From NCBI RefSeq assembly GCF_014524565.1, contig NZ_CP060139.1, forward strand, positions 1,309,501 to 1,373,500: a stretch of 64,000 bases of DNA, written 5' to 3'. Under the pieces are notes generated by a model, which was not told the origin of the DNA, made no database searches, and saw only the letters and a list, made by a program, of their open reading frames with translations. This document shows, one piece after another, positions 20,220 to 33,047 of this stretch. Position 1 is the first letter of the stretch; the number at the start of each line of letters is the position of its first letter. The DNA comes from Croceimicrobium hydrocarbonivorans. Lineage in GTDB: Bacteria; Bacteroidota; Bacteroidia; Flavobacteriales; Schleiferiaceae. Both the position numbers and the translations under genes were made by a program.

Positions 20220-21518
20220 ATGTTTAGAAGCTATATCGGTCTCATTCTTTGCAGTTTAGCTCTGCAGGCCCAGGCCCAAACAGAAACTATAAAAGTGGTT
20301 TCGTACAATTTAATGTATTACAAAACGGGTTCAGCACCCTGTAACCACAGTCGTACCGCCGCTCAGCGAGATGCTGATTTACAAACCATCGTTTCTTACC
20401 TCGCCCCTGATGTTATGGTGGTGAATGAACTGGGTAATAATCCGGTGAATCCCCTCGTAATGCTAAGCGACATTTTTAATGTGAATGGCATTAGTCATTA
20501 CGATCGTGCCGGCAGCAGCAATAACAGCTCCAGTGGCTTAGTAAACATGCTCTTCTATAATAAGGAGAAGTTAGTTTTAGCCTCACAGAGCTCTATCAAT
20601 CTCGATATCAATCAAAGTCCACTGGTTCGGGTAATAGACTTCTACCGTCTCTATGTTAAAGATGCGGGTTTAGGCTCCGCAGGCGTAGATACCGTTTTCT
20701 TCACTATTGGTGTAGCCCACTTAAAAGCTGGAAACAGCGGTGCAGATGCCGCTGAGCGTGCACGTGCTACCGCCGCGGTAATGGACTATATCGATCAGAA
20801 TGTAGCCGACGATAATGTGCTTTTTGCCGGCGACCTTAATGTATACAGTGCTAACCAAGCTGCCTTTCAAAATCTCATTAATTACAGTGGCAATCCCGCC
20901 ATCAGCTTTAATGATCCCGAAAATCAATTAGGTAGCTGGAACAACAACAGCAATTTTGCCGCCTATCATACCCAAAGTACTCATGCCAGCAGCAGTGGCT
21001 GTTTTAGTGGTGGAGGTATGGATGACCGTTTTGACTTCATCCTTATTTCGGATGCTATCGAAAATAACAGCGATGGCTTAGATTTTATCGACTACCGCGC
21101 GGTGGGTCAAGATGGAAGCAGCTGCTGCGGTGGAAGCTTAAGCACCACTAATAATGTATCGGTTAATAGTTCGGTAGCCTCGGCCTTATACAATTTCAGT
21201 GATCACTTACCGGTGGAACTGGAATTGGAAGCCACCGTTTCCGGCATCGGCTTAAGCCCAATTGAGAAGGCCCGTAAAGCCTGGACCCTCTCCAATCCTA
21301 TTGAAAATCAATTAGTGATTAACTTTAGTGGCCTGATGGCTAAAAAGCCGGTTCAGGTAAAAGTTTTGAGCATTAACGGACAAATGATCGGCCACTGGAA
21401 TAGTGAAGCGCAAGCCCGCTTAAGCATCGATTGCAGTGCTTGGCAGAATGGTATTTATTTAATCCAGGTTTCAGATGGCGCTGAGATTCTGGAAACCCGC
21501 AAAGTGATTAAACGATGA
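20220..21518 (+). CDS. Secreted endonuclease/exonuclease/phosphatase-family enzyme with T9SS type A sorting domain
   Basis: 432 aa. Signal peptide (cleavage after QAQAQ), then an EEP catalytic domain with its usual motifs: SYNLMYY, the metal-binding Glu in VVNELGNN, His in VAHLKAG, FAGDLNVYS, DDRFDFILI and the C-terminal NFSDHLPVEL. The last roughly 85 residues form a T9SS type A domain (VLSINGQMIG, GIYLIQVSDG). It likely hydrolyses phosphodiesters or phosphates (extracellular nucleic acid, phospholipid or sugar-phosphate) at the cell surface; the substrate is not determined. It is the first gene of the cluster and overlaps the next by ATGA. Confidence 0.9.
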   Translation: MFRSYIGLILCSLALQAQAQTETIKVVSYNLMYYKTGSAPCNHSRTAAQRDADLQTIVSYLAPDVMVVNELGNNPVNPLVMLSDIFNVNGISHYDRAGSSNNSSSGLVNMLFYNKEKLVLASQSSINLDINQSPLVRVIDFYRLYVKDAGLGSAGVDTVFFTIGVAHLKAGNSGADAAERARATAAVMDYIDQNVADDNVLFAGDLNVYSANQAAFQNLINYSGNPAISFNDPENQLGSWNNNSNFAAYHTQSTHASSSGCFSGGGMDDRFDFILISDAIENNSDGLDFIDYRAVGQDGSSCCGGSLSTTNNVSVNSSVASALYNFSDHLPVELELEATVSGIGLSPIEKARKAWTLSNPIENQLVINFSGLMAKKPVQVKVLSINGQMIGHWNSEAQARLSIDCSAWQNGIYLIQVSDGAEILETRKVIKR

Positions 21519-23692
21519 AGCAGATTCTTCGTATCGGAACTCTATTCAGTCTGATTTTTTCAGGCTACAGCCTGATGGCCCAGAGCTATCAGGAGAAAAC
21601 CACCAATGCCAGTAATGTGCGTTTAAACGTAACCAACCTGGGCACCTTCGGAAATGCCTTCCGCGGGTATCGCGATGGTACCGGAAATCCCAGTGCAGAA
21701 TATCCAGCTGGTTCCGGTGTAGAGCACCTTTTTGAAGGTGGTATCTGGATTGGTGGTAAAGAAAATGGCGGTCAGATCGTAGTATCTACTTCCGCTTATG
21801 ATGCCCCACAAGGCTATGCTCCTGGTCGTGGTGGATTCGAATTTCACGTAGACACATCTATTACCGGGAATGCCCGAAACTTGCAAGAACGCAGTAGCTT
21901 GTTTGACAGTCGCTATTTCGATCCTTTCGCCATTTCTCATCAGGATTATGTAGCCACCTTCAGTGATAAAAGCATTGTGGTGCCCGGAACTCAAATTCCC
22001 ATTAACGACCATACCCGCCCAATGGGGGTGCGTGTGGAAATGGAAACCTATAACTGGAATTACAATTTCACCGACTTTATGGTGATCGTAAACCTGCGTT
22101 TCTATAATGAGGGGCAAAACACCTACGATGATGTATACACCGCCCTTTGGAATAATACCGTAGTACGAAATGTAAACATCACTCCTGCCGGTGCCGGTGG
22201 ATCGGCATTTTACAATCGCGGTGGTAATGGATTTATGGACAGTCTGCACCTGGCTTATTGCTTTGATGCCGATGGAGATCCAGGATTTACCGAAAGTTAT
22301 GTTGGTCAGAAATTTTTGGGTGCTACGGATAAAGAAGGTTTCCACCACCCAGACCTCGACTCCAATTACAATCCTATTAATGGAGCTTGGGAATTGGATC
22401 AGTTCCTGGTAAACTACAATGCTTGGGCCTTCAATGACTTTAGCGCGGATTTCGCCTTCCCAACTACGGAGAACGATCGCTACCAAAAAATGACCCAAGG
22501 CTTAAACCAAAGTCCATGCTGGGATAATCCCAATGATCCTGGCTGTAATGGTCGGAATTTCCAGGCCGAATTAAATGCTTCGGGTAACCGTTCAGATTTA
22601 TTAGCAGCGGGTCCCTTTAGCAGCTTTGCTCCCGGCGATGTTATTGAAGTTTCCTTCGCTTATGTATTCGCTAAGAAAAACGAGGATGGCAATCCCAATA
22701 CCGACAATAATGAGGTGCAGCGCGCCAACTTAATCACCAATGCCGGTTGGGCTCAACAAGCCTTTAATGGTGAAGATCAAAACTTTAATGGCCTCTTGGA
22801 TCCAGGTGAAGACAATGATGGTGATGGTGAAATCACGCGTTTCATTTTACCCTCTCCTCCCAATATCCCTTATACCCGGGTAGAACCAGGCGACGGTCAA
22901 ATTGAAATTTACTGGTCTGATAATGCCGAGCGCAGCATCGATCCAATTTCCAATCGCGAAGATTTTGAAGGCTATCGCTTATACCTCTCCAAATTAGGAT
23001 TTGACGTTACCGGAGTTCAAGATTTAGCGCGCGACTTCAGTTTAATCGCCCAATACGATAAAGCTGGAAACAACCTCTTTAACGAAACGGGCTTTGGCAG
23101 CATCAAGCTTGCTCAACCTTATTATTTTGAAGACGATACCATTGCTTATCACTATCGCTATGTGATTGACAATATTCCCAATGGCTGGCAATATGCCACG
23201 GCAGTAACTGCTTTTGATGAAGGGAACCCGGAAGGGAATCTCGAATCCTTGGAGAGCTCTTTCCTGGCCAATAATAATCGGGCTTTCGCCGGAACCGGTC
23301 CTAATGAAGATATGGGAGCCGATGCACCCTTCGTATATCCTAACCCTTATTACTATGGCGCCGCCTGGGAAGGCAAATCCAACTTCCAGGAAGAAAGCCG
23401 CAAGATCATATTTGCCAATTTACCGGCACGCTGTGTAATCCGCATTTACACTGCTGGGGGTGACTTTATTGACGAGATCCGTCATGATGAAAATTACGAT
23501 GGTAGCGATACTCGCTGGTTCCGCACTTTCGGTGCTGAAGATGCTGGTGAAAACCGTTTTAGCGGCGGTGAGCATGCTTGGGATTTACTGTCCATCGAAA
23601 GCCAAATTATTAGTCGAGGCCTCTATATGTTCTCGGTTGAAGATTTAAACAGTGGTGAAAAGTTCACCGGAAAATTTGTGATAATTAAGTAA
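21515..23692 (+). CDS. Large secreted protein with Ca-binding-like Asp-rich loop
   Basis: 725 aa with a signal peptide (cleavage after LMAQS). No catalytic family recognised. An Asp/Asn-rich stretch near residues 424-440 (DQNFNGLLDPGEDNDGDGE) looks like a thrombospondin-3/EF-type calcium loop and is followed by a fibronectin-III-like part (YTRVEPGDGQIEIYW). The C-terminus (RGLYMFSVEDLNSG...KFVIIK) resembles a FlgD/T9SS-type sorting fold but lacks the clean YPNP motif. It overlaps the upstream nuclease gene by 4 bp. Confidence 0.7.
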   Translation: MKQILRIGTLFSLIFSGYSLMAQSYQEKTTNASNVRLNVTNLGTFGNAFRGYRDGTGNPSAEYPAGSGVEHLFEGGIWIGGKENGGQIVVSTSAYDAPQGYAPGRGGFEFHVDTSITGNARNLQERSSLFDSRYFDPFAISHQDYVATFSDKSIVVPGTQIPINDHTRPMGVRVEMETYNWNYNFTDFMVIVNLRFYNEGQNTYDDVYTALWNNTVVRNVNITPAGAGGSAFYNRGGNGFMDSLHLAYCFDADGDPGFTESYVGQKFLGATDKEGFHHPDLDSNYNPINGAWELDQFLVNYNAWAFNDFSADFAFPTTENDRYQKMTQGLNQSPCWDNPNDPGCNGRNFQAELNASGNRSDLLAAGPFSSFAPGDVIEVSFAYVFAKKNEDGNPNTDNNEVQRANLITNAGWAQQAFNGEDQNFNGLLDPGEDNDGDGEITRFILPSPPNIPYTRVEPGDGQIEIYWSDNAERSIDPISNREDFEGYRLYLSKLGFDVTGVQDLARDFSLIAQYDKAGNNLFNETGFGSIKLAQPYYFEDDTIAYHYRYVIDNIPNGWQYATAVTAFDEGNPEGNLESLESSFLANNNRAFAGTGPNEDMGADAPFVYPNPYYYGAAWEGKSNFQEESRKIIFANLPARCVIRIYTAGGDFIDEIRHDENYDGSDTRWFRTFGAEDAGENRFSGGEHAWDLLSIESQIISRGLYMFSVEDLNSGEKFTGKFVIIK

Positions 23693-23706
23693 ACAATGTA
23701 GTAGTG

Positions 23707-25926
23707 ATGAGAAAATTACTTCCTCTCTTCTTAGGTCTATTTATGACCAGCCTTTTAAGTGCCCAGACCTACCCTCTGGTTACTATTCAGCAAATTAACC
23801 AGGTAATCGACCTGGCTGCTTGTAACGATTCTTCCGTTTATTTGGGAGATACCGTTCGCTTCCGTGCGCATGTTGTTACTGATGGTGGACTTTCTGAAGT
23901 TGCTTCCAGCTCAGTACAAGGTGGTAACCGTCCTTTCATTTACATGATCGATACCGCCATGGGTGGTGTTGTAGATTCATTAGGTGGAATCGAAGTGATG
24001 GGTGTTTACACTGATGGTAGTGGTAACCTGCAGCCAATCCCAGGATTTACTGCCTTATTCCAAGGTGATAAAGTAGAAGTAACCGCGGTTGTTGAGCAAT
24101 ACGAAAACAACACCCAGTTAACTACTTTAGATGTAAACTCAGTAACCTTACTTACTTCTGGCGATTTACCCAGCTCGGCTTTCGTTCCTAAGACCCTTCC
24201 TTTAGGTGACTTAAACGATGCCCAACGTGTAAACAATGTACAGAGCGGTGAGTACTGGCAAAACAGCTTCGTTGAATTGCAAAACGTAACTGTAGTACAG
24301 GTAATTCCTTTCAGTGGAAACCGTGTAAGCTTCAACGTAGCCGATGCTGCTGGTAATGTGATCAACGTTTCTGACCGCTTCCTAGCTCAGAAAACTCCTT
24401 CTTTCAGCACCGTAAACCCTAACTCTCCTTCTAACGGAACCGGTTCTTTCGTAGCTCCTTCCGTAGGTACTTTCTACTCTTCTTTAAAAGGTATTGTTCG
24501 TCACTCAGGTAACGGATGTACCGGTGGTACTGGTCGTGGTTATGAAATCAACCCATTCGACTCTACCCACTATGAAGTAGGTGCCAGCGCTCCTGCTATT
24601 GCCAATGTATTCCACTTCCCTGTAATCCCTACTAGCAGCGATTCAGTATTAATCAGTGCCGACATTTCTGACGCTGATGGTACCATCGATACTGTACAAT
24701 TATTCTGGAGTGCTAATGGTTCTATGCCTACCGGTTCTTTCAACGCTGTGAACATGAACTTGGCTAGTGGAACTACTTATGAGTACTATGTTCCTGCTCA
24801 AGCTAACAACACTTTGGTACGCTATTATATTCGTGCAGTAGACAACGACGGTTCTGCGGTAATTTTCCCTGCTAGCCCTGCTGCCCAAGCTAATCCTAAC
24901 TTCAACCACTATGTGGTTCGCGATAATGGTTTACGCATTTTCGATCTTCAGTTTAGTGGAAACGGAACTGGTTCTAGCGTATTCGAAGGTCAAACTGTAA
25001 CTGTACGTGGTTTCATCACCTCAGCTCGTAAAGATTGTGACTTAGAGTATGTGTACTTACAAGATCCTAATGATACTATCTACGCTGGTATTGCTTTAAT
25101 TCCTAACCAGGACTTAGACAATGTTTATCGCGATCAGGAAATTCAAGTAACTGGTACCATCCAGGAAACTTACGGTGTTACTTACCTGAACGTAGACAAC
25201 TACGTAGGTTTGAACAATAGCCAAACCATTATGCCTATCGCTATCGATCCTTCAGATCCTAACCTGGACATGGAGATGTACGAAGGTATGTTGGTATCTT
25301 ACCAAAACCCTAATGGTGGTAAAATCTACATTACCAATGCTAATGCTGGATTTGCTGAGTACACTGTAGCAACCGATCCTACTTTCGGAAGCAGCCAGTC
25401 TTCTCGCGTAATTGCCGGTCGTCAGAGCGGTACCAGTGCTAACTCTAGCCTTTATGTTTCTTTAATTGCTGACTCTAACTATGTAAGCAATGATGGAACT
25501 CTTCAGGTACCTGCCGTTATCACCAACACCAGCATGGATATGGATGCTATGCACGGTATCCTTTGGTACAGCTTCGGTAACTACAAATTGATGCCTCGTA
25601 ACAACTTCGACATTGTGAACTTGAGCACTCCATTAGATACCAATGGATGTAATGTTCCTACCAATGTGAGCATCGAAGAAGTAGCAACTGCTGAAGTGGC
25701 CATCTACCCTAACCCAGCCCGCAGCCTCTTCAATATTGAGAGCGCGAATGGAACTATTGAATTCCGTTTAATGGACCTCAATGGTCGTGTGATCTTAAGC
25801 AGCAGCGATGCCGCTACCCAGCACGAAGTAAATGTGGCTAATTTAGTGAACGGTGTTTACGTATTAAACACTATCGAAACTAAAACCGGAGCTTCTAACA
25901 GCTTTAAAGTTGTTGTAGCCCACTAA
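23707..25926 (+). CDS. Secreted T9SS type A protein with DUF5689/OB-like domain
   Basis: 739 aa from ATG 23707 (GTG 3 nt earlier also possible). Signal peptide MRKLLPLFLGLFMTSLLSAQ. The middle carries OB-like segments (VTVRGFITSARKDCDLEYVYLQ) reminiscent of DUF5689, and the C-terminus is a T9SS type A domain (VAIYPNPARSLFNIE...NGVYVLNTIET). Codon use is strikingly uniform (GGT, GTA/GTT, AAC, TTC, GCT, TCT) compared with its neighbours, suggesting very high expression. A strong terminator follows directly. Function unknown; a major surface or secreted protein is the inference. Confidence 0.8.
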   Translation: MRKLLPLFLGLFMTSLLSAQTYPLVTIQQINQVIDLAACNDSSVYLGDTVRFRAHVVTDGGLSEVASSSVQGGNRPFIYMIDTAMGGVVDSLGGIEVMGVYTDGSGNLQPIPGFTALFQGDKVEVTAVVEQYENNTQLTTLDVNSVTLLTSGDLPSSAFVPKTLPLGDLNDAQRVNNVQSGEYWQNSFVELQNVTVVQVIPFSGNRVSFNVADAAGNVINVSDRFLAQKTPSFSTVNPNSPSNGTGSFVAPSVGTFYSSLKGIVRHSGNGCTGGTGRGYEINPFDSTHYEVGASAPAIANVFHFPVIPTSSDSVLISADISDADGTIDTVQLFWSANGSMPTGSFNAVNMNLASGTTYEYYVPAQANNTLVRYYIRAVDNDGSAVIFPASPAAQANPNFNHYVVRDNGLRIFDLQFSGNGTGSSVFEGQTVTVRGFITSARKDCDLEYVYLQDPNDTIYAGIALIPNQDLDNVYRDQEIQVTGTIQETYGVTYLNVDNYVGLNNSQTIMPIAIDPSDPNLDMEMYEGMLVSYQNPNGGKIYITNANAGFAEYTVATDPTFGSSQSSRVIAGRQSGTSANSSLYVSLIADSNYVSNDGTLQVPAVITNTSMDMDAMHGILWYSFGNYKLMPRNNFDIVNLSTPLDTNGCNVPTNVSIEEVATAEVAIYPNPARSLFNIESANGTIEFRLMDLNGRVILSSSDAATQHEVNVANLVNGVYVLNTIETKTGASNSFKVVVAH

Positions 25927-25934
25927 TAATTTCA

Positions 25935-25965
25935 GGGAAGCCTTCTCCGGGAGGCTTCCCTTTTT
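25935..25965 (+). terminator. Intrinsic terminator inside the secretome cluster
   Basis: A 9-bp perfect stem GGGAAGCCT/AGGCTTCCC with an 8-nt loop, followed by TTTTT. It lies 8 nt after the stop of the 739-aa secreted protein and 13 nt before the next start codon. Confidence 0.9.
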
Positions 25966-25978
25966 AATTTTCATTCCT

Positions 25979-27436
25979 ATGCCGGGAAAATTAAAATCCA
26001 TCCTTTGGGGCCTCAGCGCGGTTTTGCTCATCGCAGGCTGTCGCAAAGGCGAAATTGATCGCAATGGTTTACCCGATACCTTCATCAGCTATGAAGCTAT
26101 CAATCTAAGCGGTCAGAATCGTTTAAACTCCTCTGTTCGCCTTACTTGGTATGGCACCGATGGAGATGGTTATATTTCCGGCTACGAGCTATCACTCGAC
26201 AATCAGAATTGGGAGTACACCACTACTCAGGATTCTGTTTTCCTATTTGACATTCCTCCGGGTCAGGACTCTGCTGATATCAGCTTCTTCGTACGTGCCA
26301 TTGATAATGATGGTAATATCGATCCCAGCCCGGCTTTCTTAAAAGTTCCACTGATCAACACTCCGCCAGATGCGGCTTTCTTAGACGATCGTGGACCATC
26401 TGATACTGCTTTTATTGCTGCCACTTTCTTTTGGCAAGCTTCCGACCCCGATGGGGACAATACCCTCAAAGCAGTAGAGATGAAAATCAATGAGGGCGAC
26501 TGGGTTGAAATCGACCGCAGTCAAAACCTCATCACCTTCTTGGCTGATACCTCTATTCAAAACGGTGAAGCCAGTGCTGAAATCTATTACGGACAATCAA
26601 CGGCCGCAGCACCTTACAACATTAACGGATTAAAAGTAAACGACACCAACCGTGTTTACATCCGCTCTATCGACATTGCAGATGCAATTAGCGATGTCGA
26701 TACCTCTGAAGTTTTCTACTTCCGCCCTAAAACCAGCGGCGTAAATATGCTTTGGGTTTCCGGTCATAATGCCGGTATTAAAAACCAGTACAAAGGATAC
26801 CTTCAAAGCAATAATCTCAATTACGATCTCTTGAACTTTGGCTATGCCCAAGGAGCGAATCTCCCAAAGTATTTTGATCCAACCGTTCAATTGATCTTTA
26901 AACAATATCAGCAGGCCTTTTTAAACTTGCCTTCTACCAATTTCCGTAATTCGGTTACCGGTGATGAAAAACCTCTTATCGACTATCTGGCGCCGGTTAT
27001 TCAGCGCTTTACGGATAATGGTGGTAAATACTTCCTCACCACTCAATTAACCAGCACTCAGGATCTCAGTGAATCTCGCTCGGTATATCCCATTGATGAT
27101 ATCGTAGTATCAACCGTTCCGGGTTCGCAAGCGCGTATTACTACCGATTCGGCTTTGGTAAATTTGGTGGACACCACCTTATATCCTGAATTGGCTCCCA
27201 CCAATGTAGAGTTTGGCGTTGTGCCCATGGTGGCTTCTGCCGATGCCCAGAATTTTTACTATGCTCAAATTACGCGCTTCCGCGGATGGAATGGCAGCTC
27301 TCAAGTAGTAGCCGCCGTTCGTCGTCGCAATTCTAAAATCTCCCAGGTATTCTTCTGCATGGAGCTTCATCGCTTTGAACGGAATGCCGGTGCTATTGAA
27401 CAATTAATCGGTGAAATCTTCGATAATGAATTCTAA
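25979..27436 (+). CDS. Outer-membrane/surface lipoprotein with Fn3-like domain
   Basis: 485 aa with a lipobox LLIAGC (Cys21). After it comes a beta-sandwich domain with Asp/Gly-rich loops (YGTDGDGYISGYE) of the fibronectin-III/cadherin kind; the second half (about 240-480) is mixed alpha/beta and not recognised. The start lies just behind a terminator, and the 3' end overlaps the TonB receptor gene. It may be the surface partner of that receptor, although it does not look like SusD. Confidence 0.72.
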   Translation: MPGKLKSILWGLSAVLLIAGCRKGEIDRNGLPDTFISYEAINLSGQNRLNSSVRLTWYGTDGDGYISGYELSLDNQNWEYTTTQDSVFLFDIPPGQDSADISFFVRAIDNDGNIDPSPAFLKVPLINTPPDAAFLDDRGPSDTAFIAATFFWQASDPDGDNTLKAVEMKINEGDWVEIDRSQNLITFLADTSIQNGEASAEIYYGQSTAAAPYNINGLKVNDTNRVYIRSIDIADAISDVDTSEVFYFRPKTSGVNMLWVSGHNAGIKNQYKGYLQSNNLNYDLLNFGYAQGANLPKYFDPTVQLIFKQYQQAFLNLPSTNFRNSVTGDEKPLIDYLAPVIQRFTDNGGKYFLTTQLTSTQDLSESRSVYPIDDIVVSTVPGSQARITTDSALVNLVDTTLYPELAPTNVEFGVVPMVASADAQNFYYAQITRFRGWNGSSQVVAAVRRRNSKISQVFFCMELHRFERNAGAIEQLIGEIFDNEF

Positions 27437-30269
27437 GCTCCTTTACCGTCTTCTGGCCTTCCTGTTTTTAGGCCTCAGCCTCCAGGCTCAAAGCGAAGAA
27501 AAAGCCTCCTTAAGTGGAGTGATCACCGATGCCAAAAGCGGGGAAACCTTACCCGGTGCCAATGTGCTTTTGGTAGGAACCTATTTGGGCGCCGCAGCGG
27601 ATATCAATGGTAATTATGTAATCAATGGAATTAAGGCCCAGGATTACACCATTAAGGTTCAGTTTATCGGTTATGAAACCAAGCTTTTTACCGGCATCTC
27701 CTTTGAGCCCGGCGAAAGCAAGGTGCTCAATATCGAATTACGTGAACAACGCGAATCTCTTAATGAGGTAACCATTGTTGGTAAGAAGGAACAAATTAGC
27801 CTTGAGAAAGCCAGCAGTGAAGTAACCATCAGTCAGGAGCAAATCTCGCAGATGAATGTACGCGATGTGCAGGAAGTACTGCAGATGCAAGCTGGGGTGA
27901 TTAAAACTCAGGATGGTTTGCAAATCCGTGGTGCTCGGGTTTACGAAACCGAGTACATCGTTGATGGTATTTCTGCCCAAGATCCACTAGCCGGTACTGG
28001 TTTTGGTGTGGATGTAAATTCGAGCTCCGTGGCCAGTGTAGACCTTATCACGGGTGGTGTGGGTGCCGAATTTGGTGGAGGTAGCTCCGGGGTAGTTAAT
28101 ACCCGCATCCGCGAAGGAGGCGAGAAATTCCAAATTAGTGGTCGCTATCAGCGTGATAACCTTGGAAATTCCGATATCGCCAGTAGCTTTAATACCGATC
28201 GCTTCGAACTGAATGTTGGTTCTCCTATTCCCGGCACTCAAAAAAAATTGACGCTGTTTGCCAGTATCTCGGCCTATATGACCGACGAATATTTCGGAGC
28301 TACAGCCGATCAATTGGAAAGCTCACTCTTTAGTGCCAATCCCGAATTTTGGGCACCGCGCTATACCAACTCCTACACTAATACCATTAAGCTAGCTTAT
28401 AAACTGCGCTCTGGCACCAAATTGACCTTAACCAATCAGCATTCGCTGAACATCAACCAGAATACCCGTACGCTGCAAATTGTAGGTTTTGACGCCATCT
28501 TAACGCCGGGTTTCCAATACAACCGCAGCAATAATTTGGACAATGCAACCACTTATACGCATCACTCCAATTTAACGGCCTTAAACCTCAATCACCTTAT
28601 CACTAAAAACTGGGGACTGAGTGTTTCAGTAGGTCGCTTATTCACTAATTTGCGCGCCGATGCTAATGGTCGTCCTTTCCGTACCGAAACGGTCGATCAG
28701 ATCTTAGATGAACAACACATCATCTCCTCTCCCATTGAAATCTTTAACCCGGGCGATCCTCGTGGTATTTACTACGTATCTGTAGGTGACGGATTAATCA
28801 ACAATGGTGGTATTACCCCTACCTGGCACGATCACTATGTGGAAGAATACAGTGTAAATGGCAAAGCCACCTGGATTCCGGATAACAAACAACATGAGTT
28901 AAGCTTCGGGCTCCAAAACACTTTTACCGAATACCAATGGGTAGATGTTACCCGTCCTTGGGTAGGTGCCCCGATTAAGATCAACGACAGTACCTACACC
29001 CAATCAGTAAGCATTGGTTCAAGCAATGATATCTGGTCGGTAAACCCCATCGAAACCGGTTTATTTGTACAAGATCGCATTAGCTATAAAGGGATTATTG
29101 CTACCCTCGGGCTGCGATTAAACATGTGGGCTCCCGGTAAATTTGTGGATGATGCTGTAAATGATCCTAGCGCTCCGGTAATTGATCAGGTACGCGAAGA
29201 TTATCTCGCTAAAACCAGCGAGGTATTTGGTTTACGGTGGAAAGCACGCTTACTGCCTAAAATCAATGTGAGCTTCCCGGTAACGGAAAATAATGTGCTC
29301 TACTTTAACTACGGGCATAGCATGCGTTTACCTCACCCTCGTTTCATTTATGCCGGATTAGACCCCACCTATCAGGATCGTTCTTTCCTGGCTAGCTTGG
29401 GTAACCCCGATTTGGATCCAGAGGTGAATGTGAGCTACGAGATTGGATTGAAATCCAAATTGAATAAGGATTTGGCCATGAGCCTTACCGCCTTTAACAA
29501 TAACCGTTTCGATTATATCGTATCCCGTCGGGTAATTGTGGCAGATCAAACGGGTCGTCCAACTACCAAGAACTTCTACATCAATCAGGATTATGCCAAT
29601 ATCTACGGTGTAGAATTAGGACTTAATTACCGGATTGGTCGCTATTTAAACAGCTTTGCCAATATTGGCTATCAGGTGGCTCGTGGTAAGTCGAACTCAG
29701 CCCGCGAATCCAGCTTACAGATTGAACAAAACGGAGAGGTATCTTTAAGTCGTGAGCAGTATTTAGCCTTCGACCGCCCTTGGAACATCAATACCGGAAT
29801 CATCTTTGCACCGGATAGCACCCTTCCAATCTTAGGGATGAACTGGACTGGCTTTAGCGCCTTTCTGTCTTATCAATTTACCTCGGGTTTCCGCTACACT
29901 CCACAGCAATTAACCCGCACCAACGAATTAGGTCGTCCTATTTATGAGCCTATCGTTGATCAGTATTTGCAAAATCAAGCCAAACCCTGGCATAATATCG
30001 ATTTGAAATTAAGCTACAATCTACCCCTGGGTATGAAGCGTGGCAAAGGAGTTTCCCTCAGTGTGGAAATCCGAAACCTGGCCAATGCCAAGAATTCTCA
30101 AATCATTAATCCGGTTACGGGTGAAGCTTATGAATACGGAGACGATGTGCCCATTACCTGGCGCGATCCACGTTACAGTGGCCCCCAGGAAAGTGGAGTA
30201 GATCCTCGCAACCCGGCAAGATATCTGGCCCCTCGACAAATTTTATACGGAATCGAATTTCGCTTTTAG
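27426..30269 (+). CDS. TonB-dependent receptor with carboxypeptidase-regulatory domain
   Basis: 947 aa from ATG 27426; a GTG at 27411 is also in frame. Signal peptide ends near LSLQAQ. The N-terminal CarboxypepD_reg-like domain (LSGVITDAKSGETLPGANVLL) is followed by the plug (VQEVLQMQAGVIKTQDGLQIRG; EYIVDGISAQDPLAG) and a 22-strand-type barrel ending GIEFRF. No SusD gene follows, so it is not a classical SusCD pair. It overlaps the lipoprotein gene by 11 bp and is followed after 3 nt by a PorV-like gene. Substrate unknown. Confidence 0.93.
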   Translation: MNSKLLYRLLAFLFLGLSLQAQSEEKASLSGVITDAKSGETLPGANVLLVGTYLGAAADINGNYVINGIKAQDYTIKVQFIGYETKLFTGISFEPGESKVLNIELREQRESLNEVTIVGKKEQISLEKASSEVTISQEQISQMNVRDVQEVLQMQAGVIKTQDGLQIRGARVYETEYIVDGISAQDPLAGTGFGVDVNSSSVASVDLITGGVGAEFGGGSSGVVNTRIREGGEKFQISGRYQRDNLGNSDIASSFNTDRFELNVGSPIPGTQKKLTLFASISAYMTDEYFGATADQLESSLFSANPEFWAPRYTNSYTNTIKLAYKLRSGTKLTLTNQHSLNINQNTRTLQIVGFDAILTPGFQYNRSNNLDNATTYTHHSNLTALNLNHLITKNWGLSVSVGRLFTNLRADANGRPFRTETVDQILDEQHIISSPIEIFNPGDPRGIYYVSVGDGLINNGGITPTWHDHYVEEYSVNGKATWIPDNKQHELSFGLQNTFTEYQWVDVTRPWVGAPIKINDSTYTQSVSIGSSNDIWSVNPIETGLFVQDRISYKGIIATLGLRLNMWAPGKFVDDAVNDPSAPVIDQVREDYLAKTSEVFGLRWKARLLPKINVSFPVTENNVLYFNYGHSMRLPHPRFIYAGLDPTYQDRSFLASLGNPDLDPEVNVSYEIGLKSKLNKDLAMSLTAFNNNRFDYIVSRRVIVADQTGRPTTKNFYINQDYANIYGVELGLNYRIGRYLNSFANIGYQVARGKSNSARESSLQIEQNGEVSLSREQYLAFDRPWNINTGIIFAPDSTLPILGMNWTGFSAFLSYQFTSGFRYTPQQLTRTNELGRPIYEPIVDQYLQNQAKPWHNIDLKLSYNLPLGMKRGKGVSLSVEIRNLANAKNSQIINPVTGEAYEYGDDVPITWRDPRYSGPQESGVDPRNPARYLAPRQILYGIEFRF

Positions 30270-30272
30270 GAG

Positions 30273-31286
30273 ATGAAGAAATTAGCACTATACCTCTTTG
30301 CCCTCCTGTGTAGCTTTTCAGCCACAGCTCAAATCCTACCTAATTACGGTGGGGAGCGAGCAGGACTTTCAGCCTTGAGCTTTTTGAAAAACGATATGAG
30401 CACCCGCTCTTTAGGTTTAGCTGGCACCAGCCTGGCCTTGGAAGGTGATGCTTACTCGGTGATGAACAATCCCGCGGCTCTAACCGAATTGAAATCGACC
30501 ACCTATGCCTTGAGTCACCTCTTTTTAGGTGGAGGGGTAAACCAATCTTTTGCTGCCGCGAACTTCCCGATGAAGGATCGTACCAGTACCTTGAGCTTTA
30601 GCATTAATGCATTGAACTCTGGCGATATGGAAGAACGCACCGAATTTCAACCCATGGGTACCGGTCGTCAGGTGTCGGTGGCCAATATCGCGGTAGGTGC
30701 CACCTATGCTCGTCAGCTTTCCGCCTTATTTAGTGCTGCGGTAAGTGTAAAATACATTTACGAAGGAGTGGCCGGTTTCCACAACAGCAATGCCACGGTA
30801 GACCTTGCTTTCTTATACCGCACGGATTTCCGCGACTTAAAGTTTGCAGCCATGGTACAGAACTTTGGCGGTAATTCCTCTTTAGGTAGTGATGGCGATA
30901 TCCCCACCACATTTAACCGCAGTACCGGAATTGGTCTGGAAGCCAATGTGGTTCCTACCATTTTCAAATTAGGAATTAGCATGGTACCTTGGAAGAAAGG
31001 GGATCACAGCTTATTGACCGCCTTACAATTGAATCATCCTAATGACAATGCCGAGAACTATTCAGCCGGAATTGAATACCATTGGAAAGAGATTTTTTAC
31101 GCCCGCGCTGGCTATCGTATTAGCGTGCGTCACCGTCATATTCCCACCTTCGGAATTGGAGTACGCAGTCGTTTAGGACAGCATCCTTTCTATATCGATT
31201 ATGCTGCCAATCCTACCAACTTTATTGGCATACAACACAGCATTGGACTACGTTTTCAAATTTTAAAAATCGCTGACCGCTCATGA
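30273..31286 (+). CDS. PorV/PorQ family protein
   Basis: 337 aa. Signal peptide (cleavage after ATAQ) and a FadL/PorV-like barrel: N-terminal region with DMSTRSLGLAGTSLALEGDAYSVM and the conserved NNPAALTEL, ending IQHSIGLRFQI. PorV shuttles T9SS cargo from the translocon to the attachment complex; PorQ is related. This copy is embedded with T9SS-sorted genes and may be dedicated to them (inference). Overlaps the next gene by ATGA. Confidence 0.85.
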   Translation: MKKLALYLFALLCSFSATAQILPNYGGERAGLSALSFLKNDMSTRSLGLAGTSLALEGDAYSVMNNPAALTELKSTTYALSHLFLGGGVNQSFAAANFPMKDRTSTLSFSINALNSGDMEERTEFQPMGTGRQVSVANIAVGATYARQLSALFSAAVSVKYIYEGVAGFHNSNATVDLAFLYRTDFRDLKFAAMVQNFGGNSSLGSDGDIPTTFNRSTGIGLEANVVPTIFKLGISMVPWKKGDHSLLTALQLNHPNDNAENYSAGIEYHWKEIFYARAGYRISVRHRHIPTFGIGVRSRLGQHPFYIDYAANPTNFIGIQHSIGLRFQILKIADRS

Positions 31287-32539
31287 AAAAGTCTGTCTTA
31301 TTCAGCATTTTGATTTCAGCGCTGGCCCTGGTTTCTTGCGAAGATTACCTGGGTAAAAAAACCGATCTCGATTTTATCGATGTACCGCCAGACAATAGCG
31401 TGCGTGAGATTGCCTATGTTCCCATCCTTCCTATACTTAGCGATTTTGATCGCCCCAGCGATGTATGCGCCGGTTTCGACGGTTTGATCTACGTGGTAGA
31501 TGAAGGCAGCGAAGAGGTAGTAGCCATGGATGAGTCTGGTCGTATCCTCGGACGTAAATCGGTTCCCGGAGCTCGCAGTGTGATTCAAGATCGTCGCTTT
31601 GACCTATTGGTTATTGGTACTTCAGACTCCCTTTACAATTCAGGTAATGGCGATACTTTATTGACTTTCTCTACCATCTATCGACTAAGAATGGTAGGTA
31701 CCGGTGGCTATGCTATTAGCAATGCCCAGATCGTAAACAAGATCGTACATCCTTTTTACTATACACAAAGTAATCCGGTGCGTCGTACCAATGATTTTGT
31801 ACGCTTCAACAATATTGGCATCATCGGCAATAGCCAAGATCCCAATCGAAATAACCAGTATTATGTGAGTCGCCAATATGTGCGCAATCCGGATCCGGAT
31901 CCCAATAATCCTGAAATAAGCAGTGGCCCCTTAGGCCCCAATGACGCTGTACTTTATTTTGGTAATGATGATGTATTGATTTCCCCCATTTCAGTGCAAA
32001 CTGCTTCGGGCTTTTTCAACGACTTTTTTGAGCATCCTTCGGGCATCACAACCCTTACTCAGCCCCCTCAGTTTGGAGCGCAAACCAGTAGCGATTTCCT
32101 TTACACCTCTTTGGAAGAAGACAATGCCTTAAAGGTGCAATACATCGAATTTGCCGAAACTGAATTTGGTGCGGAATACCGTCCTCGCATTTTAGCATCT
32201 GGAGACACCAGTCAGGCCGATGGCTTTATCAATTCACCCAACAAGTTCCGTCAACCTACCGACATCACTTATGCTGGCGATGGAACTCAATACCTCTTTG
32301 TGGTAGATCGGGAAACCGACTCTCTGTATCAATTCTCTTTTACGGGTTTTGAAGGGGTTCGTCCTCCCGCAGCGGCCGGGGTAGATCGCTTTGTAAAAAC
32401 CAGCTTCGGTGGTACCGGTGGTGGACTGATGCAGTTTAATGATCCGGTGGCAGTTGCTTACTTTAATCAAATCGTATATGTAGCTGATGCTGGCAATGGC
32501 CGGATTATGCGTTATAAGCTTACTTTGGATTTCGATTAA
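31283..32539 (+). CDS. Lipoprotein with beta-propeller (NHL-like) features
   Basis: 418 aa with lipobox ALVSC (Cys19). Repeated blade-like strands such as RPSDVCAGFDGLIYVVDEGS, QPTDITYAGDGTQYLFVVDRE and DPVAVAYFNQIVYVADAGNG follow the NHL propeller pattern (P-x-x-V/I ... V-D-x-G-N-x-R-I). Propellers of this type bind ligands or partners at the surface. It is the last gene of the tight chain from the TonB receptor onward. Confidence 0.8.
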   Translation: MKKSVLFSILISALALVSCEDYLGKKTDLDFIDVPPDNSVREIAYVPILPILSDFDRPSDVCAGFDGLIYVVDEGSEEVVAMDESGRILGRKSVPGARSVIQDRRFDLLVIGTSDSLYNSGNGDTLLTFSTIYRLRMVGTGGYAISNAQIVNKIVHPFYYTQSNPVRRTNDFVRFNNIGIIGNSQDPNRNNQYYVSRQYVRNPDPDPNNPEISSGPLGPNDAVLYFGNDDVLISPISVQTASGFFNDFFEHPSGITTLTQPPQFGAQTSSDFLYTSLEEDNALKVQYIEFAETEFGAEYRPRILASGDTSQADGFINSPNKFRQPTDITYAGDGTQYLFVVDRETDSLYQFSFTGFEGVRPPAAAGVDRFVKTSFGGTGGGLMQFNDPVAVAYFNQIVYVADAGNGRIMRYKLTLDFD

Positions 32540-32588: not shown

Positions 32589-32620
32589 TTGGGCAGATTG
32601 AGTGGAAAAAACTACATTTG
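32589..32620 (+). promoter_or_regulatory. Promoter TTG-N21-TACATTTG
   Basis: TTG at 32589-32591, a 21-nt spacer and TACATTTG at 32613-32620 lie 10 nt before the start of the small type B sorting-domain gene. Confidence 0.5.
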
Positions 32621-32630
32621 GGAAATTAGT

Positions 32631-33047
32631 ATGCGGAAATATCTCTACATAGCAGTACTTTTCTTGGGCTTCGGCCTCGGATCAGCCTGGGCCCAATCTC
32701 CTCACGGAACTGGTTCCAGCGCTTCCAATTCTGCTTTGTGCCCCCTGTACATTCCCAATGCTTTTACTCCTAATGGCGATAATATCAACGATCGCTTTGA
32801 ACTGCGCATCAGTGAAAACTGCGAACTGGTAAAATTCTCCCTGCAGGTTTTTGACCGTTGGGGACGGATGGTCTACCAAAGCAATACCATTGATGCCGAA
32901 AAAGCCTGGGACGGAAGATTCGAAAATGAAGATTTGCAACAAGGTGTTTACCTCTTTAAGCTTAGTGCTGAAATGGTAAATTACAACAATAGCAAAGCGG
33001 ATCCCGTTAAGTACAACAAACAGGGTTCAGTGGTCCTTATTCGCTAA
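32631..33047 (+). CDS. Small stand-alone T9SS type B (gliding-motility-associated C-terminal) domain protein
   Basis: 138 aa. Signal peptide (cleavage near SAWAQ), a short Ser/Gly linker, then directly a CHU_C-type domain: IPNAFTPNGDNINDRFEL, FDRWGRMVYQS, AWDGRF and QGVYLFKLS. This domain normally forms the C-terminal tail of large adhesins; here it is nearly the whole protein. The frame is open upstream to 32487, but a promoter and a clean signal peptide fix ATG 32631. DUF2141 follows after 2 nt. Confidence 0.85.
   Translation: MRKYLYIAVLFLGFGLGSAWAQSPHGTGSSASNSALCPLYIPNAFTPNGDNINDRFELRISENCELVKFSLQVFDRWGRMVYQSNTIDAEKAWDGRFENEDLQQGVYLFKLSAEMVNYNNSKADPVKYNKQGSVVLIR

Follow-up and report, generated by a model that had tools for sequence, protein, structure and literature searches.

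A run of seven genes on the + strand, here named EEP, S725, S740, LIP, TBDR, PORV and NHL, was analysed in a stretch of 64,000 nucleotides (the window) from Croceimicrobium hydrocarbonivorans, corresponding to positions 1309501-1373500 of the 4.04 Mb contig C1. The explanation favoured for the whole set, to which we assign a probability of roughly 55%, is that the surface protein S725, exported by the type IX secretion system (T9SS), is anchored by a barrel of its own, PORV, in a TonB uptake complex. Six of the genes, S725, S740, LIP, TBDR, PORV and NHL in this order, form a core that is retained in many families of the Bacteroidota, and in the 11 genomes searched nearly all other genes encoding the same type of C-terminal domain (CTD) as S725 are preceded by a gene for a TonB receptor and followed by one for a PorV-family barrel. 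The core starts with S725 (21515-23692), a surface protein with a PorZ-like CTD, and S740 (23707-25926; the frame opens at a GTG at 23704, with an ATG at 23707), a secreted protein in which OB-fold-like and Ig-like regions are combined with a type A type IX tail. It continues with the lipoprotein LIP (25979-27436, lipobox-like Cys21), the TonB-dependent receptor TBDR (27426-30269; frame from 27411, the ATG at 27426 being the likelier start), the PorV/PorQ-family outer-membrane barrel PORV (30273-31286), proposed as cognate anchor for S725, and the NHL-repeat (propeller-like) lipoprotein NHL (31283-32539, lipobox-like Cys). EEP (20220-21518), situated directly upstream, encodes a secreted enzyme of the endonuclease/exonuclease/phosphatase family with a type A type IX tail. 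The original prediction, made from the sequence of the window, had proposed this set of genes and families; all seven were confirmed where they had been placed, as was the lack of SusD, no SusD family being matched among the proteins of the run in Pfam and NCBIfam scans.

Gene order and distribution of the cassette

Gene order was compared across the Bacteroidota, a comparison on which the original prediction had been made to depend, using profiles built from the family and two sets of loci: a scan of named relatives (GTDB; the best 80 of 189 relatives) and 70 genomes of the phylum (loci L172-L241), picked for family spread and contig room and therefore non-random. A locus was regarded as usable if its sequence ran on for 8.3 kb or more past S725, which left 58 of the 80 named and 68 of the 70 phylum loci. 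The order was found to be conserved, with all six core genes present in order in 50/58 and 51/68 of the usable loci, and in another three phylum loci (none of the named) it is intact but the locus ends before NHL. In eight named loci, and in no phylum locus, S740-LIP-TBDR alone follows S725; a close PORV (420-447 bits) was found elsewhere in all eight of these genomes, with NHL adjoining each time, so that these parts are retained even where the order is lost. In 122 of the 126 usable loci (50+8 of 58; 51+10+3 of 68) S725 is followed, in this order, by LIP and TBDR. Retention of the order across many families of the Bacteroidota marks the run as more than a chance arrangement.

The description of the set as a tight run holds for its overlaps and short gaps, among them 4-bp overlaps at both the EEP/S725 and the PORV/NHL junction, and fails for the 52-bp gap between S740 and LIP, where a strong terminator-like hairpin with a 12-pair stem and a T run (25934-25961, + strand) separates the secreted half from the membrane half. 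Among 46 relatives with both genes delimited, this gap measures 25-250 bp in 23, at most 25 bp in 22 and 264 bp in one; a fold below -9 kcal together with a T run (T4) is found in 19 of the first 23, with differing sequences, and such a hairpin is common but not general among the relatives. As judged from the sequence, the set probably consists of two transcription units, or of one with a leaky internal terminator. The latter is to be expected because the space between the hairpin and the start of LIP is too short for a promoter, and it would favour production of the secreted proteins over that of the membrane complex. The Bacteroidota-type promoter motif TAnnTTTG occurs 44 times in the window, fewer than the 56.5 found in shuffles, and none is located close upstream of EEP or LIP.

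The hairpin between the halves, seen in the window and in the 19 relatives, would suit a reading in which a secreted hydrolase unit (EEP-S725-S740) and a receptor unit (LIP-TBDR-PORV-NHL) are two unrelated neighbours, and so would four phylum loci (none of the named) in which S740 alone follows S725. Two unrelated neighbours are nevertheless very improbable given the 122 loci with LIP and TBDR in order after S725, and the pairing of S725-type CTDs with PorV-family genes elsewhere (see below). The four loci with S725 and S740 only (L196, L208, L209 and L210) all belong to a single family (f37).

When 99 genomes (the own genome and 98 relatives) were searched at E 1e-15, S725 was found in 57 and PORV in 56. 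All matches fall among the 60 own-family genomes; neither gene was found in any of the 39 genomes of the same order belonging to other families. Among the named relatives of the GTDB scan are Schleiferia, Thermaurantimonas, Phaeocystidibacter, Owenweeksia and Vicingaceae, which places the window probably in the Schleiferiaceae; cultured relatives carrying the cassette are Phaeocystidibacter luteus LMG 25704 (L100), Schleiferia thermophila DSM 21410 (L144) and Thermaurantimonas aggregans LA (L114). Within the own family no match was obtained at E 1e-15 for both genes in G009 and G043, for S725 in G049 and for PORV in G051 and G056. G009 and G043 share a genus (g4), of which two other genomes carry both genes, and one of the two is a single contig; a natural loss of S725 and PORV in G009 and G043 is likely. 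At E 1e-20 the S725 profile matched 62 of the 295 class genomes, and at E 1e-10 it matched 150 of 395 in the phylum; of these 150, 110 (own included) score more than 150 bits and many of the others are partial matches. The strong set (>150 bits) consequently holds 109 genomes besides the own, 39 of them outside the fetched loci. SprA, the T9SS translocon, was found in the own genome and in 109/109 of the strong set, compared with 303/395 overall, the genomes being treated as independent, and no type IX core component was recognised in the run by Pfam or NCBIfam. With these two results the earlier suggestion of a self-contained surface layer export unit finds no support as such.

The same distribution bears on a reading in which the set is a machine for surface assembly or envelope maintenance, placing for example lipoproteins or lipopolysaccharide-linked cargo, with the receptor serving energy coupling or export. 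The mean column identity of S725 is 73% (20 family members), a value judged uncommon among proteins that bind nutrients; the combination of a PorV-family barrel with a PorZ-like CTD recalls the T9SS attachment complex; and the TonB transporter Oar is described as needed for secretion in Myxococcus (PMC6434023). Such a machine is improbable given the patchy occurrence of S725 (the class and same-order counts above, the own genome being the only one of its order among the matches of the class search) and the failure to find S725 and PORV in two own-family genomes, one a single-contig chromosome. In addition, no BamA, BamD or peptidyl-prolyl isomerase (PPI) family was matched in the run (Pfam/NCBIfam). 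A beta-barrel assembly machinery (BAM) complex was also considered and dropped, PORV having no match to BamG (NF053685 is not among its four matches at E <=0.01) and the distribution being patchy.

The CTD of S725 and its gene pairing with PorV-family barrels

S725 of the window matched nothing in Pfam or NCBIfam at E 0.01, and its tail was recognised by neither type A (TIGR04183/PF18962) nor type B (TIGR04131/CHU_C) models, the type A model being absent from the matches tallied for 56 members. Pfam and NCBIfam scans of the S725 relatives gave nothing usable beyond the PorZ CTD: the CTD part alone of the PorZ model (NF052228) was matched by 19 of the 56 members at E <=1 (best 1.4e-4), whereas the window S725 itself gave no match to this model and falls short of its whole-protein cut-off of 260 bits. 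When CTD sets were compared by hhalign, where E-values from single comparisons are rough, the S725 CTD matched the PorZ CTD set at 97.9% (E 3e-13) against 55.5% and 54.1% for the two type A sets, built from the tails of S740 and EEP. The alignments used comprised the window together with 19 of 30 loci (A1), 18 loci (A2), 55 of 66 usable loci (A3), 46 of 65 (A4), 41 of 50 (A5) and, for the CTD, 26 (A6).

PORV scores 143 bits against the PorV/PorQ family model NF033709 (cut-off 90), and its profile matched the solved structure of PorV (6h3i) at E 8.8e-10. It was rejected as canonical PorV (NF033710, 51.5 bits, cut-off 250), canonical PorQ (NF033711, 78.6 bits, cut-off 220) and PorV2 (NF052325, 29.8 bits, cut-off 325), other genes of the own genome scoring 458.7, 361.9 and 442 bits against these models, and no PorP/SprF match was found for it at E 0.01. 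Altogether the own genome holds five PorV/PorQ-family members, namely PorV, PorQ, PorV2, PORV and one beside a simple triad described below.

The pairing of the CTD with barrels was studied by searching 11 hand-picked S725-positive genomes, on which the rule below rests, with the CTD alignment A6 and the PorV/PorQ family profile. The CTD search gave 54 rows, consisting of 11 cassette S725, four second segments of one protein and 39 others, and only the 39 were counted; 27 of them lie in three genomes (11 in G271, 11 in G435 and five in G104). For 38 of the 39, a PorV-family match begins on the same strand no more than 1 kb downstream, against 0.06 expected, a figure which, like the expected count given for EEP below, ignores shared ancestry. 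In eight of the 11 genomes, the only ones in the type A control, 12/12 CTD genes were followed by a PorV-family gene compared with 0/150 type A tails (the best 150 rows of at least 783 matches, two genomes being capped at 150). Of 38 CTD genes counted, 37 are flanked immediately by a TonB receptor gene on the upstream side and a PorV-family barrel gene on the downstream side; this count excludes the 39th gene (L340), which belongs to a tandem CTD-PORV-CTD-PORV array. The dedicated transport helper of the original prediction is thereby supported and made more specific.

The CTD proteins of these triads are 690-1422 residues long, and the four that were scanned with Pfam gave no match. Four of the triad receptors are confirmed by Pfam and a plug domain was found in a fifth; in L322 the order is receptor-barrel-CTD. 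In each of two genomes 11 paralogous triads are present and their three genes co-diverge (r 0.92/0.89/0.89 and 0.92/0.87/0.79, p <=0.0045), a comparison from which species relatedness is removed since it is made within a genome. The own genome also holds a simple triad (L303, C1:2551000-2562000), with a receptor frame of 1166 residues, a CTD protein of 1364 residues and a PorV-family barrel of 346 residues. The cassette is an enlarged form of this receptor-CTD protein-barrel triad. In trees built with eight named and 17 phylum cassettes chosen by hand, the 25 cassette PORVs form one clade (0.994), as do the 25 cassette TBDRs (1.0).

No prior description of the triad was found in the literature, as judged by titles and abstract openings among the matches listed and with preprints outside the search; a phage-response paper naming a PorV/PorQ-family protein appears unrelated. 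CTD proteins held by a barrel are known in the T9SS from two cases in the attachment complex, PorU with PorV and PorZ with PorQ, and from the type B/SprF pairs; the present pairing offers a testable rule with 38 further cases and a role for many unassigned PorV/PorQ-family genes. It suggests that Bacteroidota can give a TonB receptor an exported, barrel-anchored partner in place of a lipoprotein. With odds a little short of even, a receptor, a T9SS-exported surface protein with an uncleaved PorZ-type CTD and a dedicated PorV-like barrel anchoring it may make up a third general class of TonB uptake system beside SusCD and BtuB-BtuG, with many paralogues per genome in some lineages and the cassette as a deeply conserved, enlarged member. 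If true, this would add a class of transporter that is probably hidden by automatic annotation as hypothetical and PorV/PorQ-family proteins.

Proposed uptake complex and its substrate

In the proposed complex S725 would cross the outer membrane via the T9SS, its PorZ-like CTD would stay uncleaved and dock on PORV, a PorQ-like barrel encoded for it, and the docked pair would stand beside TBDR. S725, two surface lipoproteins (LIP and NHL) and the exported S740 would jointly form a ligand-handling cap in the role that SusD has in SusCD. EEP, exported separately, would cut a phosphodiester polymer, most likely nucleic acid, of which the pieces would be imported, and EEP and other enzymes would in this way feed the capped receptor. 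We infer the uncleaved CTD on a cognate barrel from the gene pairing, and likewise the physical complex, its surface position and the direction of import; nucleic acid as the substrate is put forward with more reserve.

EEP matches PF03372 at 28.3 bits and, with its tail, PF18962 at 38.6 bits (both above cut-off) and TIGR04183 at 33.3 bits (cut-off 23), and contains at 30, 69, 203 and 327 the motifs NLMYY, NELG, AGDLN and SDHLP, which we take to be catalytic. At more than 60 bits EEP precedes S725 in 57 of the 74 named loci that have room for it, compared with 0/66 phylum loci. At lower scores the 70 phylum loci show one case adjoining S725 upstream on the same strand (L188), three upstream on the opposite strand (L194, L218 and L222) and two ~4 kb upstream (L195 and L215). 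An EEP-family gene directly after NHL was found in seven of 20 phylum loci with fetched flank, compared with 0.019 expected, six with a type A tail, these 20 genomes carrying 0-8 EEP genes each. The lower-score comparison also showed EEP after NHL in L172, L173, L198, L201 and L220, two of which (L172 and L201) belong to the 20. As 13 of the 20 loci show no EEP directly downstream, EEP is accessory and outside the core. Downstream of the cassette in L355 (G216), one of the seven loci, the EEP gene precedes genes for two large T9SS proteins that carry lamin-tail, endonuclease I and DUF5689 domains, and this flank is a secreted nuclease set beside the cassette.

S740 carries the type A tail in its PF18962 (43.3 bits) and TIGR04183 (37.5 bits, cut-off 23) matches; among 42 members scanned PF18962 was found in all and the OB-fold PF01336 in 17 at E <=0.05. 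S740 also matches the N-terminal, non-catalytic part of the ExeM/NucH model NF033681 (positions 15-218) at 47.6 bits, below the cut-off of 300, and EEP reaches 16.8 bits against the same model. Against solved structures S740 matched type IX tails and, weakly, the Ig parts of peptidylarginine deiminase. The recurrence of EEP beside the cassette makes a phosphodiester, perhaps nucleic acid, the leading candidate for the substrate, an assignment that we hold only tentatively. The capture of nucleic acid or phosphate esters put forward in the original prediction accordingly keeps the indirect support of EEP on either side of the cassette and of the below-cut-off likeness of S740 to ExeM/NucH, and loses by the position of EEP outside the core and by the N-terminal domain of S725, which is nearest to domains of glycan enzymes.

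The structure model of S725 (pLDDT 84.6, pTM 0.83) shows an N-terminal domain at ~23-444, whose fold we take to be a beta-supersandwich, a fibronectin-like region, the sequence GEDxNFNGxLDxGED, presumably a Ca loop, and the PorZ-like CTD at ~605-725. Whole-model TM-scores from Foldseek are low (at most 0.26 for S725 and 0.27 for LIP, by query length) because the proteins are multi-domain, and Z-scores at the level of domains were used instead. By model comparison the N-terminal domain resembles those of dextran dextrinase, GH116 and GH94 (Z 15.5-19.4, 7-11% identity in rows), the best match being dextran dextrinase (Z 19.4, 254 aligned, rmsd 3.3), and also GH174 fucanase (Z 14.3, 240 aligned of 449). 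The S725 profile gave three matches among solved-structure sequences (E 0.057-0.33), which were not used.

These likenesses favour a glycan-handling complex in which S725 uses its beta-supersandwich to bind or cleave a polysaccharide, either extracellular or belonging to the cell itself, with EEP as an incidental neighbour. We regard this as rather unlikely: the domain matched in the GH94 and GH116 enzymes is the non-catalytic one, no catalytic glycosidase domain was found by Pfam in any of the seven proteins, and EEP would not be expected directly after NHL as often as it is found there.

A number of results weigh against the anchored S725 in a TonB uptake complex. In the gene order, S740 went undetected in ten of the 68 phylum loci (0/58 named) with the order otherwise retained, S740 alone follows S725 in the four loci of one family, LIP-TBDR and PORV-NHL are separable in the eight rearranged genomes, and the terminator divides the run in the window. 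The PORVs of the triads form no single clade. By hhalign the triad CTD set matches type A sets at 95-96%, the PorZ CTD set matches the S740 tail set at 96.8%, and in a review the PorZ CTD is counted among type A (PMC10202324); all these CTDs being related and the PorZ CTD being counted as type A, the PorZ-like CTD is, as far as such comparisons tell, a subtype among related tails and no separate kind. EEP is not directly downstream of NHL in the 13 phylum loci mentioned, and the modelled likeness of S725 to GH94, GH116 and GH174 suggests a glycan over nucleic acid.

Relation to known systems and further features

The cassette shows the tested membership features of none of PorZ-PorQ, SprB-SprF, SusCD and Pus. 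PorZ, described as retaining its CTD and being held by PorQ (PMC10202324), is similar in being a T9SS-delivered CTD protein on a PorV/PorQ-family barrel, and of the sets compared the PorZ CTD is nearest to that of S725; the cassette differs in that S725, with a match to the CTD only, and PORV lie below the PorZ and PorQ cut-offs, in that the pair travels with a TonB receptor, and in that PorV and PorQ are encoded separately in the own genome. That cognate PorV-like barrels shield CTDs from cleavage is a supposition of the same review (PMC10202324). Type B CTD proteins are described as anchored by PorP/SprF barrels of their own, encoded in the same cluster (PMC9143113), an arrangement with the same principle; S725 is unlike them in lacking TIGR04131/CHU_C, PORV in lacking a PorP/SprF match and the triads in having the receptor upstream in 37/38 cases.

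With SusC-SusD and the Pus (phosphate utilisation) clusters, the latter proposed in PMC8115612 to scavenge phosphodiesters, the cassette has in common a TonB receptor, a surface ligand-handling partner and an enzyme in one cluster, but no SusD is present, the proposed cap would be T9SS-exported and barrel-anchored instead of a lipoprotein, and TBDR (PF13715, CarboxypepD_reg; PF07715, plug; PF00593, barrel) reaches 80 bits against SusC/RagA TIGR04056, below the cut-off of 368.25. The Bacteroidota BAM, described as containing BamG-K, a FadL-family barrel with surface lipoproteins that form an extracellular dome (PMC12578637), is alike in combining a barrel with such lipoproteins and unlike in its BamG and in having BamA where the cassette has a TonB receptor, and the distribution of the cassette is patchy. 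The likeness to ExeM/NucH is limited to the N-terminal part of the model, matched by S740, and to EEP as a separate enzyme of the EEP family; both proteins score far below 300 bits and the catalytic and OB parts are on separate genes.

LIP matched no Pfam or NCBIfam family and, by profile, no solved-structure sequence. Its model (pLDDT 89.2) contains two FN3/Ig-like domains, with FN3 pairs found by Foldseek, and a C-terminal fold (model 249-485) resembling class I glutamine amidotransferases (best Z 12.7, 183 aligned, rmsd 3.4). The only invariant Cys of LIP is that of the lipobox, for which reason it is probably not an amidotransferase. NHL matched PF01436 at 31.9 bits and, among solved structures, short propeller repeats only, and the single sequences of EEP and TBDR gave no match to solved structures. 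The region 32631-33047 encodes a small secreted protein that carries a sorting domain of type B (CHU_C); the gene follows NHL in many, not all, relatives and is probably outside the cassette, and a TAnnTTTG motif at 32613-32620 precedes it.

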